Below the pieces are notes generated by a model. It was given only the letters and a program-made list of their open reading frames with translations. It did not search any database and had not been told where the DNA came from. From positions 1 through 64,000 of the forward strand of contig JAFLDE010000011.1 in assembly GCA_017302655.1 (NCBI GenBank): a stretch of 64,000 nt of DNA, written 5' to 3'. How positions within the stretch are numbered: the stretch's first letter is position 1; every line of letters begins with the position of its first letter. Positions 44,565 to 48,572 of this stretch are shown piece by piece. The position numbers were made by a program, and so were the translations under genes. The stretch is from Burkholderiales bacterium. GTDB lineage: Bacteria; Pseudomonadota; Gammaproteobacteria; Burkholderiales; Burkholderiaceae_C.

Positions 44565-44998
44565 GGCGCCAGCGCTTCATGGTGGGTGAGCGCGCGGCCG
44601 ATGGCATTCGGGATGAAGCAGATCGCCTGCCCGGCCACCGACAGCACCATGCCGGCCCCCACCACGGTCACGGACACCGCGGTACCGGCCACCACCGCTG
44701 AAGCGCGGGCGGCTTCGCCGCTGAAGCGAAGGGTCATGCGTGCGCCGTCGCTGGCGCGCTCCAGCACCCAGACCGTGCCCTCCGCGCTGGCCTGCACGGC
44801 CACGACGGCCAGCGTGGCGCCTGCCGAAAGCAGCATCACCGGCGCCGCCACCGACACGGCCACCGGCAGCATGGACAGGGCACTCGCCTCGGACAGATCG
44901 GTGTGCGCCGCCGCAGGCGCCTGCAAGGCCAAGGCCCAGCCCAGGCCGATCGAACACAGGCGCAGGGACGCGTTCAGGGAAAAGGTGCGACGCTTCAT
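44561..44998 (-). CDS. Secreted or membrane protein of unknown function, DUF2145 operon
   Basis: The 145-residue product has a signal peptide (cleavage near AAA-HTD, residue 31) and two further hydrophobic segments (about 45-68 and 102-125) around a small polar loop. It is likely held in the inner membrane. I do not recognise the family. It overlaps the YiaA gene stop and the next gene start by 4 bases each. Confidence 0.7.
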   Translation of the reverse strand: MKRRTFSLNASLRLCSIGLGWALALQAPAAAHTDLSEASALSMLPVAVSVAAPVMLLSAGATLAVVAVQASAEGTVWVLERASDGARMTLRFSGEAARASAVVAGTAVSVTVVGAGMVLSVAGQAICFIPNAIGRALTHHEALAP

Positions 44999-45432
44999 GA
45001 CAGGCACTCCGCTTCCTGCGCATCGCGCAGGGTTTTGGCCAAGGTGAAGGCCGAGGACATCAGAAAGAGCCAGGCCACGAGCAGGAAGGCGCCGTGCGCG
45101 GGCGGGATGGCGAGCACGCTCAGGCCCCAGCCGGTCAAGCCCATGGCGGTGGCCAGTCCGCCCCAGGCCACCAGGCGCCAGCCAGGTGCCTCGGGCAAGC
45201 CAGCCGCGCGGTCGCGCACCGACTTCGCCAGCACGAATGCGGCGCACAGGCAGAACACGTAGGCCATGACCATGAAGGCCCGCTCGATGGGAGTCACCGG
45301 CAGCCAGGCCAGCCCGGAGCCGCAGAGCAGCGCGGCGGCGCCGAAGGAGATCCAGACCTGGGTCTTCCAGGCCGGGGTGTCGCGTCGTGGGGCTGCTTGC
45401 ATGGCGGGGTGCCGAAGTGAAGGTGAGGGCAT
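44995..45432 (-). CDS. YiaA/YiaB-type inner membrane protein
   Basis: The 145-residue protein has four helices in two repeats of the YiaAB two-helix domain (WISFGAAALLCGSGLAWLP and AFMVMAYVFCLCAAFVLAKSVRDR, then a similar second pair). The second repeat ends AFTLAKTLRDA, echoing FVLAKSVRD in the first. The start may be 45432 or 45402. It heads the DUF2145 operon. Confidence 0.75.
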   Translation of the reverse strand: MPSPSLRHPAMQAAPRRDTPAWKTQVWISFGAAALLCGSGLAWLPVTPIERAFMVMAYVFCLCAAFVLAKSVRDRAAGLPEAPGWRLVAWGGLATAMGLTGWGLSVLAIPPAHGAFLLVAWLFLMSSAFTLAKTLRDAQEAECLS

Positions 45433-45579: not shown

Positions 45580-45603
45580 AACGGCCCGCCGAGGCGGGCC
45601 GTT
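45580..45603 (-). terminator. Terminator hairpin after small protein gene A
   Basis: An 11-bp perfect stem (AACGGCCCGCC / GGCGGGCCGTT) is followed on the minus strand by a T-rich tail (TTTGCTTTTT). The same stem recurs at 46108-46131. Confidence 0.8.
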
Positions 45604-45624
45604 GTTCCCCCGAGGACGAGGGCG

Positions 45625-45858
45625 TTACGAAGCGCTGGCGCGCTTGGCCGTCACGACGACGGCGGGCAGGCGCGTGGGCTCAGGGCTCTGGGTGCGCTTG
45701 GCGGTGACCACCACGGTGGGCAGGGTCACGACGGTAGGTTCTGGCAGAACCATCGGTCCGGCCAGCACGGCAGCCGACGCGACGGTCAGGCCGGCCATCA
45801 CGATCATGGTGAGGACGTCGCTCAGAGCGGACAGCGGGGCGATTTGGAAGCGGGTCAT
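45625..45858 (-). CDS. Small membrane/exported protein A with two VVVTAKR motifs
   Basis: The 77-residue protein has an N-terminal hydrophobic segment (about residues 9-34) that could be a signal peptide or anchor. A Pro-rich tail follows with LPTVVVTAKR at 46-55 and LPAVVVTAKR at 64-73, and it ends RASAS. The VVVTAKR motif resembles the TonB-box and plug start of TonB-dependent receptors. AAGGAG stands 6 bases before ATG 45858. Protein B at 46156 is its paralogue, and the cassette is duplicated. No family is recognised. Confidence 0.7.
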   Translation of the reverse strand: MTRFQIAPLSALSDVLTMIVMAGLTVASAAVLAGPMVLPEPTVVTLPTVVVTAKRTQSPEPTRLPAVVVTAKRASAS

Positions 45859-46107
45859 GGTGATCTCCTTGGGGGGCATCGCGAACTGGCGAATTGCGTT
45901 GCGATGACTGAACTTTGGGCGATCACGACCTCGCTTCCCAGCGGCTTGCGACGAGGTGCAGATGCGGGCGCTGAAACGACGTGCAGGCGGTCCGAACGCG
46001 CACGATGCTCGCCCTGTCATGAACTGCGCGTTTGCTGCGGCACGGCCCGCGGCGCACAGAGCGAACGATGAAAGGCAAACGGCCCGCACACAGCGAGCCG
46101 CAATGAA

Positions 46108-46131
46108 AACGGCCCGCCGAGGCGGGCCGTT
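46108..46131 (-). terminator. Terminator hairpin after small protein gene B
   Basis: The same 11-bp stem as at 45580-45603 (AACGGCCCGCC / GGCGGGCCGTT), followed on the minus strand by a short T-containing tail (TTCATTG). It is the copy belonging to the duplicated cassette. Confidence 0.7.
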
Positions 46132-46155
46132 CGTTCCCCCAAGTGATGGGGTTCG

Positions 46156-46383
46156 TTACGAGGCGCTCACGCGCTTGGCGGTCACCACCACGGCGGGCAG
46201 ATGAACGCGCTCGGCGCTGGATTTCGCGGTCACCACCACCAGGGGCAGGGTGGCGGGTTCGGCCTTCTCGTGCTGCACCGGCAGGGCCATCACGGCGGCG
46301 CTGGCGACCGTCAGGCCGGCCATCACGAAGAGGGTCAGGGCGTCGCTCAGAGCGGTCAGCGGGGAGGTGTTGAAGCGGGTCAT
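46156..46383 (-). CDS. Small membrane/exported protein B with two VVVTAK motifs
   Basis: The 75-residue protein is a clear paralogue of the 45625-45858 product. It shares MTRF at the start, the hydrophobic core LTxxVMAGLTVASAAVxA and the ending VVVTAKRxSAS. The repeats are LPLVVVTAKS (46-55) and LPAVVVTAKR (62-71). The ribosome site is again AAGGAGATCACC directly before ATG 46383. The different spacing between repeats (18 residues in A, 16 in B) argues for selection on the motif rather than on the exact length. Confidence 0.7.
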   Translation of the reverse strand: MTRFNTSPLTALSDALTLFVMAGLTVASAAVMALPVQHEKAEPATLPLVVVTAKSSAERVHLPAVVVTAKRVSAS

Positions 46384-46400
46384 GGTGATCTCCTTGGGGG

Positions 46401-46422
46401 GTCATCGCGAACTTGCGATGAC
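46401..46422. promoter_or_regulatory. Inverted repeat in the 5' region of small protein gene B
   Basis: GTCATCGC (46401-46408) and GCGATGAC (46415-46422) are perfect 8-bp arms with a 6-base spacer, about 20 bases before the start codon. A similar arrangement with a longer, degenerated loop precedes gene A (about 45879-45918). It may be an operator or an mRNA hairpin. Confidence 0.6.
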
Positions 46423-46480
46423 TGAACTTTGGGCGATCACGGCCTCGCTTCCCAGCGACTTGCGATGAAGCGCAGAAAGC

Positions 46481-46497
46481 GGCGTCGAACCGACGCC
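46481..46497 (-). terminator. Possible terminator after the NarL-type regulator
   Basis: A 7-bp perfect stem (GGCGTCG / CGACGCC) with a 3-base loop, followed on the minus strand by GCTTTCTGCG, a weak T-tail. It could end the two-component operon. Confidence 0.4.
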
Positions 46498-46513
46498 TTC
46501 GCGCGATGAGCGG

Positions 46514-47164
46514 TCAGATCCAGCCCAGGTCGATGGCCCGCAACACGGCCTGCGTGCGGTCCCGCACCCCCATCTTGGCGAACACCGCCGAGCAGTGGTT
46601 CTTGATCACTCCCTCGCTGTTGCCGAGCAAGGTGGCGATCTCGGTGTTGCTGCGTCCGCTGGCCACCAGGCGCAGTACCTGAAGTTCCTTGGGGCTGAGC
46701 GGCTCGGGGTCGGGCAGGCCTTCGAAGGCGCGCTCGGTGGCACCGGGCCGGGTGGCGCGCTCGGTCAGACCGGGGCGCAGCGCGGTGCCACCGGCGGCCA
46801 CTTCGCGGATGGCCTCGGCCAGGGTCTCGACGCTGATGGCCTTGAGCAGAAAGCCCTTGGCGCCGGCGCGTGCGGCTTCGTCGAAGGCGTCGCGGTCGTC
46901 GAAGGTGGTGAGCAGCAGCACGGGCACCGGCAGCTGGCGCGCGGCCAGGGCGCGGATCAGCCCGATGCCGTCCAGACGCGGCATGCGCATGTCGGACAGC
47001 ACCACGTCGGGAATGTCGGCCTGGATGCGCTCCAAGGCCTGCACGCCGTCCTCGGCTTCGCCGATGAGCTGGATGTCGGGGCACAGCGCGATCAGGCCCT
47101 TGAGGCCCTCGCGCACGAGTTGCTGGTCTTCGACGAGCAGGAGGCGGATGGTGGGTGTGGTCAT
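46514..47164 (-). CDS. NarL-type response regulator
   Basis: The 216-residue protein has a receiver (IRLLLVEDQQLVREGLKGL; phospho-Asp in VVLSDMRMP; Lys in GFLLKAIS) and a LuxR HTH (LSPKELQVLRLVASGRSNTEIATLLGN...MGVRDRTQAVL). It overlaps the kinase gene by 4 bases. The adjacent duplicated small-protein cassette is a likely but untested target. Confidence 0.9.
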   Translation of the reverse strand: MTTPTIRLLLVEDQQLVREGLKGLIALCPDIQLIGEAEDGVQALERIQADIPDVVLSDMRMPRLDGIGLIRALAARQLPVPVLLLTTFDDRDAFDEAARAGAKGFLLKAISVETLAEAIREVAAGGTALRPGLTERATRPGATERAFEGLPDPEPLSPKELQVLRLVASGRSNTEIATLLGNSEGVIKNHCSAVFAKMGVRDRTQAVLRAIDLGWI

Positions 47165-48507
47165 GGCGTCTCGATGGGGCAGCGAAGTTCAATGAGGAAG
47201 CCTGGGCGCTGGCGCAGCACCCGGGCCTGGCCGCCGAGCTCCTGCATGCGCTCGCGCATGCCGGTGAGCCCGTTGCCGGGTTGCAGCCGGCTTTGGCCGG
47301 CACCGTCGTCTTCCACGCACACCACCAACTCGCGGCCTTCGGCCTGCAGGCTGATGTGCACATGGCGCGCACGCGCGTGGCGCACGCTGTTCGTCACCGC
47401 TTCCTGTACGCAGCGCAGGAGCGCGTGCGCGGTGCGCGGCGGCAGGTTGCCGGCCACGGCCTCGTCCAGGCCGAGCGTGATGACGGGGGTTTCGATGCCA
47501 TCGGCAAGCAGGCGCAGCGCTTGGCTGAGGCCAATGCCGCCCTGGGCGCGCTGGCTGCTCACGGCTCGGCGTACGTCGGCGAGCAGGCGCTCTGCCACTT
47601 CGCGCGCCTTCTCGATTTGCGCGCCGGCCTGTGCGCCCTGGTCGCGCTGCAACAGGGCCTGGCCCAGCTGGAGCTGCAGGTTCAGCGCGGTGAGGTGGTG
47701 GCCCATCAGGTCGTGCAGTTCGCGGGCAATCTCCAGCCGTTCGCCGTAGCGCAGCTGTTCGTCATGCAATTGCTCGTTGCTGCGCTTCTCGGCCAGCATG
47801 GCCTGCAGCCAGCGCCGCTTTTCGGCCTGCGCTGCGGCCAGTCGACCCAGGCCGAAGCCCAAGCCGTACAGCGCCAGCATGGTCAGCCCTTCGGTCAGCG
47901 CTGCCGCCAACCAGCCGCGGGCGGCCTGCTCAGCCGCCTGGGCCTCGGTGGGCAGGCCGAAGTAGAGCGCCAGCGCCAGACCCACCTGCAGCGTGGCGAA
48001 GCCCAGCGCCCAGACCGGTCGCAGCAACAGACCCGCCAGCACCGTGACGACGAAGGCCAGGCTCGGCGTGACGGCGAAGGCCAGCAGATCGAGCCCGAGC
48101 AGCCAGGCCAGGGCGTGTGGCGGTGGCTGGTCGATGTGCTGCGGTTGCGCCAGCTTCCACAGGCTCCATGCGGTGAACAGCAGCAGGCCGATGGACAGCA
48201 GCAGCGGACCACGGTCCATGGCGTCGCCGCCCATGCGTGCCCACAACTGGGTGACGAGGCCGTTGTAGGGGTCCGTGGCTTGGCCGGTGAGTGCCGAAAG
48301 CGCCGCCCGCAGTTCGAGCAGCGCCAGAGCCATCGCCGCGCCACGCAGCGCGAACGAGGGCTCGACGAGGCGGTCAAGCCAGCGCCGGGCAGGGGCTGCA
48401 GCGGGGAGGGAGGGGGTGGCCGGAGCGAACACGGGACGCGAGGCTAACGCGTTGGCGTGCGGATGGCGGTGGTCACGCCATGAATAGCTTCCACAGGGTT
48501 GATGCAT
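47161..48507 (-). CDS. Membrane sensor histidine kinase, HisKA_3 type
   Basis: The protein has about 448 residues. Its first 190 residues hold about six hydrophobic helices. Then come HisKA_3 (RLEIARELHDLMGHHLTAL) and the ATPase motifs (VQEAVTNSVRHARAR, VEDDGAG, GNGLTGMRERMQELGG). The start is uncertain: ATG 48507 or a later GTG near 48430. It is the kinase for the overlapping regulator. Confidence 0.85.
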   Translation of the reverse strand: MHQPCGSYSWRDHRHPHANALASRPVFAPATPSLPAAAPARRWLDRLVEPSFALRGAAMALALLELRAALSALTGQATDPYNGLVTQLWARMGGDAMDRGPLLLSIGLLLFTAWSLWKLAQPQHIDQPPPHALAWLLGLDLLAFAVTPSLAFVVTVLAGLLLRPVWALGFATLQVGLALALYFGLPTEAQAAEQAARGWLAAALTEGLTMLALYGLGFGLGRLAAAQAEKRRWLQAMLAEKRSNEQLHDEQLRYGERLEIARELHDLMGHHLTALNLQLQLGQALLQRDQGAQAGAQIEKAREVAERLLADVRRAVSSQRAQGGIGLSQALRLLADGIETPVITLGLDEAVAGNLPPRTAHALLRCVQEAVTNSVRHARARHVHISLQAEGRELVVCVEDDGAGQSRLQPGNGLTGMRERMQELGGQARVLRQRPGFLIELRCPIETP

Positions 48508-48572
48508 GGCTTCGAACACAGCATTCAGTGGCTTGCAAACGCAGCGCATGCTGCGCCTGCGATGCTCCACCC

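Follow-up and report, generated by a model that had tools for sequence, protein, structure and literature searches.

What might two very short proteins do that each carry, behind a hydrophobic N-terminus, two copies of a segment resembling the TonB box of TonB-dependent receptors, and nothing of the receptor itself? The question is raised by a pair of adjacent genes in a stretch of 64,000 nucleotides from a Burkholderiales bacterium, referred to as the window. The answer developed here is that the pair belongs to a dispersed family with a common type of promoter, and that small peptides which dock to TonB may be produced as the need arises.

The gene pair and its family

The window genes encode products of 77 and 75 residues, in which an N-terminal hydrophobic helix is followed by two LPxVVVTAK(R/S) motifs at a motif-to-motif spacing of 18 and 16 residues, respectively (Table 1). 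Open reading frames and translations were checked, and all these features are as an earlier sequence-only reading of the window had claimed. The same holds for the claim that no barrel follows, since both frames stop past the motifs and no Plug or beta-barrel hit is found in Pfam. Neither protein reaches a Pfam or NCBIfam cut-off; the sole Pfam signal, to the archaeal type IV pilin family (Pilin_N), was rejected as below threshold (14.1 bits for a curated cut-off of 25.2). AlphaFold predicts for the 77-residue member, at low confidence (pLDDT 66, pTM 0.26), a helix at residues 8–32 and a tail devoid of secondary structure. By eye, both proteins combine a signal-like N-terminus with a TonB-box-like segment; the N-terminus is Sec-like, a double-glycine leader is absent and no exporter adjoins. 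The products are described as tiny and probably exported proteins. A YiaAB-type membrane protein is encoded downstream of the pair on the same strand (44995-45432, −).

Table 1. Features of the gene pair and its surroundings, in window positions
Feature	Position	Strand	Remarks
Terminator stem, gene 1 (intrinsic)	45580..45603	−	T-rich run after stem
Family member 1, P0001, 77 aa	45625..45858	−	helix, then LPTVVVTAKR and LPAVVVTAKR
AlgR/LytTR-like box, gene 1, proximal, GCACCTCGTCGC	45948..45959	−	position −101; putative binding site
AlgR/LytTR-like box, gene 1, 20 bp further upstream, TCGTTTCAGCGC	45968..45979	−	position −121; weak, 8/12 letters
Terminator stem, gene 2 (intrinsic)	46108..46131	−	same 24-nt palindrome as gene 1
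Family member 2, P0002, 75 aa	46156..46383	−	LPLVVVTAKS and LPAVVVTAKR
Gene 2 leader	46384..46449	−	hairpin TCATCGCAAGTTCGCGATGA and AAGGAG ribosome site
AlgR/LytTR-like box, gene 2, proximal, GCGCTTCATCGC	46462..46473	−	position −90
AlgR/LytTR-like box, gene 2, 20 bp upstream, TCGGTTCGACGC	46482..46493	−	position −110; weak, 8/12 letters
AlgR/LytTR-like box, gene 2, 41 bp upstream of proximal, ACCGCTCATCGC	46503..46514	−	position −131
NarL/LuxR-type response regulator	46514..47164	−	neighbour only
HisKA_3 sensor kinase	47161..48570	−	neighbour only

The DNA around both genes is duplicated from promoter through terminator, with direct repeats of 126 nt (83%), 83 nt (86%), 65 nt (78%) and 34 nt (91%) spaced 514–531 nt. 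The duplicated cassette proposed earlier is therefore real, but the term understates the case, since a third copy sits elsewhere in the same genome (C113:809-1042). The common terminator stem AACGGCCCGCCGAGGCGGGCCGTT follows each gene as proposed, and the two terminator regions fold with z = −4.0 and −3.8. The inverted repeat that had been noted upstream of both genes is only partly upheld, the hairpin being strong in the leader of gene 2 (z = −4.3) and weaker in that of gene 1 (45859-45935; z = −1.7).

Homologues with a conserved motif, whose absence the sequence-only reading had named as counting against it, were found in number, which argues that the observation is not due to chance, and the window genes are members of a dispersed multi-copy family rather than a private duplication. 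All six genomes of the genus Inhella give 3–5 matches each (E ≤ 0.1), often in tandem (three members within 3 kb in genome G003, four within 4.3 kb in G004). A search by named genome with the genus-level alignment returned six loci, all from Inhella, and the same search with P0001 as single query returned no match. Within the taxonomic family, a single-sequence query matched 26 of 299 genomes (E ≤ 0.01), and a 35-member profile (A1) matched 65 of them at E ≤ 1e-3 and 50 at E ≤ 1e-6, counted by E-value; A1 matches reach 17 per genome, a figure that includes overlapping pieces and receptors (three of the six in the window's own genome are non-family). A motif-based script identified 38 distinct members in the fetched loci, and the profile was built from 35 of them, without L057:7765, L061 and L080; members of smaller loci are not included either. 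At the level of the order, A1 matched 26 of 300 genomes, own genome counted; the 27 matches outside the own genome fall into 21 in longer frames and six small ones, clear in G307, G322, G449 and G544 and doubtful in G339 and G429. In a sample of 210 genomes from the class, A1 matched only the own genome and one frame of 998 residues, and a plasmid search with one member (L077) gave no match. The family has no Pfam or NCBIfam entry, and the putative regulon is unnamed in Pfam, NCBIfam and the literature searched. At title and abstract level, no treatment of small proteins consisting only of TonB boxes was found, nor were the strings VVVTGRR, VVVTAKR, RVVITGKR, RVVVTGKR and VVITGRS in the literature text searched.

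The repeated motif and its likeness to the TonB box

Members of the family are roughly 65–110 residues long, with N-termini that by eye look like cleavable signals in some cases and like anchors in others. Both motif cores are kept in 35/35 aligned members, with invariant L and V in motif 1 and L, P and V in motif 2; a stricter motif expression is found twice in 30 of the 35 and at least once in all. Most members have two motifs, three being present in L176, L179 and L181 and one in L020, L023 and L061, and some members have degenerate versions such as LPTVEITVKK and LPTVIVVAKR.

Selection on the motif was assessed from pairs of members, 22 being listed out of 595 and not independent of one another. 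The window pair has a dN/dS of 0.23 within the motifs and of 0.74 in the rest of the sequence, so that the near-neutral ratio which the sequence-only reading had named as counting against it was not found. Synonymous changes likewise dominate over non-synonymous ones in the motifs of L056/L079 (3 to 0), L051:10440/L057:11352 (5 to 1), L051:13235/L057:13482 (3 to 1) and the Inhella paralogues L066:7219/L072 (8 to 1). Against these stand pairs in which motif constraint is weak or absent, namely the L067 pair (8 synonymous, 10 non-synonymous), L064:6821/L067:9922 (2 and 9), L064:6821/L067:7648 (7 and 11) and L064:9239/L067:9922 (5 and 8). The L066/L068 pairs have an overall dN/dS of 1.5–1.9, and two very young pairs are uninformative. 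Purifying selection on the motif is therefore usual and not universal.

The resemblance to the TonB box, already proposed from the window alone, was strengthened by the profile matches. In the own genome, the three non-family A1 matches are the starts of three Plug proteins. A stored locus was available for 13 of the 21 matches to longer frames in the order; 12 of these were scanned, L125 being left out, and a Plug domain is present in every one. In several of them the aligned part spans both the signal peptide and the TonB-box region. A motif expression, composed after the family had been seen, is found in 26 of 30 N-termini of Inhella Plug proteins (taken out of 140 Plug matches, which number 13–35 per genome; L223 is apparently misplaced) and in 35/35 aligned family proteins; among 352 control proteins there are 3 with it, two of them receptor-like themselves. 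Searched against the PDB, A1 gives one match, a receptor, which is not significant (E = 1.2). The family motifs are devoid of the acidic residues that are common in E. coli TonB boxes. According to PMC11658791, the TonB box is the contact with TonB for receptors, colicin M and pyocin S2.

Promoter boxes and a candidate LytTR regulator

Upstream regions of family genes have in common a box, TGCAGTTCATCGCA, which recurs as direct repeats at distances of 20, 21 and 41 bp. In 39 such regions, which comprise paralogues too and are therefore not independent of one another, pairs of near-identical 10-mers number 38 at 41 bp, 22 at 21 bp and 20 at 20 bp, compared with maxima at the same distances of 12, 16 and 11 in 60 shuffles. 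Over all distances the shuffles reach 21, a value that the 20-bp class by itself does not exceed. Counts in these regions are elevated at 15 bp (25, with a shuffled maximum of 13) and 31 bp (18, maximum 14) as well. Direct repeats about two helical turns apart beside a promoter are also a feature of the LytTR regulon, and by eye the box resembles the AlgR site CCGTTCGTC as given in PMC4064291.

A scan for double boxes over 33 loci (463 kb), most of them fetched because of their family genes, gave 29 places at threshold, 25 of which lie before family genes. Six of these 25 are outside the set used for the matrix (L053, L054, L055, L059:4630, L067:12053 and L082). Among matrix promoters outside the window, 19/37 were recovered with a double box at threshold and 18 were missed. 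The four remaining places include an adaptor-like gene, MacA-like by eye, before MacB in L066, where the double-box adaptor-like and MacB transporter genes (from L066:10442 onward) are near two family members. Another of the four precedes a 54-residue membrane peptide (L073:8146-8412) that has a double box of the same type and adjoins a family member; by eye, a similar start comes downstream of the member in L070.

LytTR matches number 8–16 per genome in the genus. One LytTR regulator has close relatives in all six genus genomes, with a LytS-type kinase adjoining (Pfam, L187), and the distance between its gene and family genes is ~7 kb in G002 and ~13 kb in G003. Relatives of this regulator (≥61% identity) are found in 49/50 genomes with clear members versus 37/249 others, these 37 having the regulator and no clear member. 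Kinship explains part of this co-occurrence, since a control LytTR gene is also associated (42/50 versus 53/249). Where the control gene is present, the regulator occurs in 41/42 genomes with members versus 22/53 without a clear member, and where it is absent, in 8/8 versus 15/196.

Two loci bring a LytTR gene and a family gene together. In L176, from another taxonomic family, a three-motif member with one box upstream has as neighbours a DUF2807 protein, a kinase and a LytTR gene that shares 56–58% identity with those of Inhella. The L080 member, which has three boxes at 20–21 bp, is separated by little over 20 bp from the end of a LytTR gene; this LytTR gene is a paralogue, the co-occurring orthologue being on another contig of that genome. 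The DUF2807 (head GIN) protein of L176 (8739-9461) has in L082 (12058-12651) a relative, detected by tblastn only, beside LytTR and kinase matches. In sum, control of the family genes by LytTR, with the above regulator as candidate, is well supported but indirect.

What the repeated tails may do

The sequences show the family, the repeated and usually constrained motif, its likeness to receptor N-termini, the promoter repeats and the co-occurrence with one LytTR regulator. We infer, at a little short of an even chance, that the products act in the periplasm as TonB-box peptides, made under two-component control, by which TonB is occupied, an inference that takes in their location, the binding to TonB, the direction of the effect and the regulator. 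Each family gene, apparently transcribed from its own promoter, would give a chain that the N-terminal hydrophobic helix carries across the inner membrane, either as a cleaved signal or as an anchor. The remaining ~40 residues would form an unstructured tail that bears two or, in some members, three TonB-box-like segments. Once in the periplasm, the segments would form beta-strand pairs with the TonB C-terminal domain, in the manner of TonB boxes in receptors, and because of this pairing TonB would be occupied and TonB-dependent traffic throttled. A LytS-type kinase and a LytTR response regulator would switch expression on via the tandem AlgR-like boxes next to the −35 region. The simplest role for a periplasmic tail with two free TonB boxes would be to occupy TonB.

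A less likely alternative is that the tails are beta-strand ligands or effectors for another periplasmic partner, within an envelope-stress programme under LytTR, the likeness to the TonB box being that of a strand-pairing motif only. The degenerate motifs of some members, the kinase, DUF2807 (GIN) protein and LytTR regulator beside the L176 member, and the MacB-type transporter of L066 with its preceding adaptor-like gene behind a double box all accord with such a partner, whereas the Plug proteins that make up all 12 scanned long matches, several of them aligned over signal peptide and TonB-box region, point back to TonB.

Somewhat less probable again is that the genes encode precursors of secreted peptides, signals or bacteriocin-like, whose mature part would be the double motif. 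LytTR regulators are classic controllers of bacteriocin genes, and in three genomes of one other family (L173-L175) a double motif comes after a leader ending in GG (ELSDxQLDxVxGG). These peptides (L173, 6964-7200; L174; L175) have two VTAKR motifs of KLEK/KMEK/KMDK type, and the loci contain NHLM-type ABC exporters, with a C39-peptidase exporter in both L173 and L174, the two loci scanned for exporter type; an ANTAR regulator and an NMT1-like binding protein are near the L174 peptide. The type was found in 0/210 genomes of the class sample, which contained no positive control. The window genes, however, lack a GG leader beside a C39-peptidase exporter, the compared loci show no conserved exporter next to family genes, and the copies are many and divergent. 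Since the double motif also occurs behind this second export route, the comparison suggests that it is the working part, whatever the route out of the cytoplasm.

That the genes are remnants of TonB-dependent receptor genes, with promoter and signal peptide left and the barrel lost, would account for the likeness to receptor N-termini but is very improbable, as the motif is constrained in many listed pairs and present in two or three copies in most members, with similar promoters and wide conservation. Equally improbable is control of the pair by the neighbouring NarL-type two-component system, suggested by adjacency and common strand in the window, because no relative of its kinase or regulator is present in the 33 other loci of the comparison, the majority of which contain family genes, and the promoter boxes look by eye like LytTR sites.

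The way in which a cell divides TonB between its numerous receptors is an open question, and inhibitory synthetic TonB-box peptides exist. If occupancy of TonB by the family is real, cells would have in these regulated, free peptides a new means of balancing TonB among receptors, and the peptides would be a natural counterpart of the synthetic inhibitors. It is conceivable, though rather doubtful, that Burkholderiales have dedicated periplasmic TonB decoys under two-component control that ration TonB among receptors or shut out phages and bacteriocins. Should the proteins not bind TonB, a family of this kind, small and multi-copy, with a repeated motif and a common LytTR-like promoter, would still constitute an unnamed regulon.

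Four known systems come close to this family. TonB-dependent receptors (Plug PF07715, barrel PF00593) have the same order of signal peptide and L-x-x-V-x-V-[TS]-[AG] segment, but the family proteins, at roughly 65–110 residues, are without plug or barrel and mostly repeat the motif. TonB-dependent colicins and pyocins also have a TonB box on a non-receptor (ETLTV in colicin M and MVITH in pyocin S2, PMC11658791); in contrast, the family has neither a receptor-binding nor a killing domain, repeats the motif and has an export signal at the N-terminus where colicins and pyocins depend on release and uptake. The NHLP/NHLM precursors (TIGR03793, TIGR03796) are approached by the L173-L175 peptides with their double-glycine leader and by the L173 exporter, which passes the NHLM_micro_ABC1 cut-off (the second L174 exporter is just under that of ABC2, 673 versus 709), whereas leaders of this type are below curated cut-offs and the window members, with their Sec-like N-terminus, have no adjoining exporter. 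Finally, the AlgR and LytTR regulons share with the family tandem sites near the promoter, and by eye the box is close to that of AlgR (PMC4064291); they differ in that the boxes here are putative binding sites and the candidate regulator is below the BtsR and LytR equivalog cut-offs.
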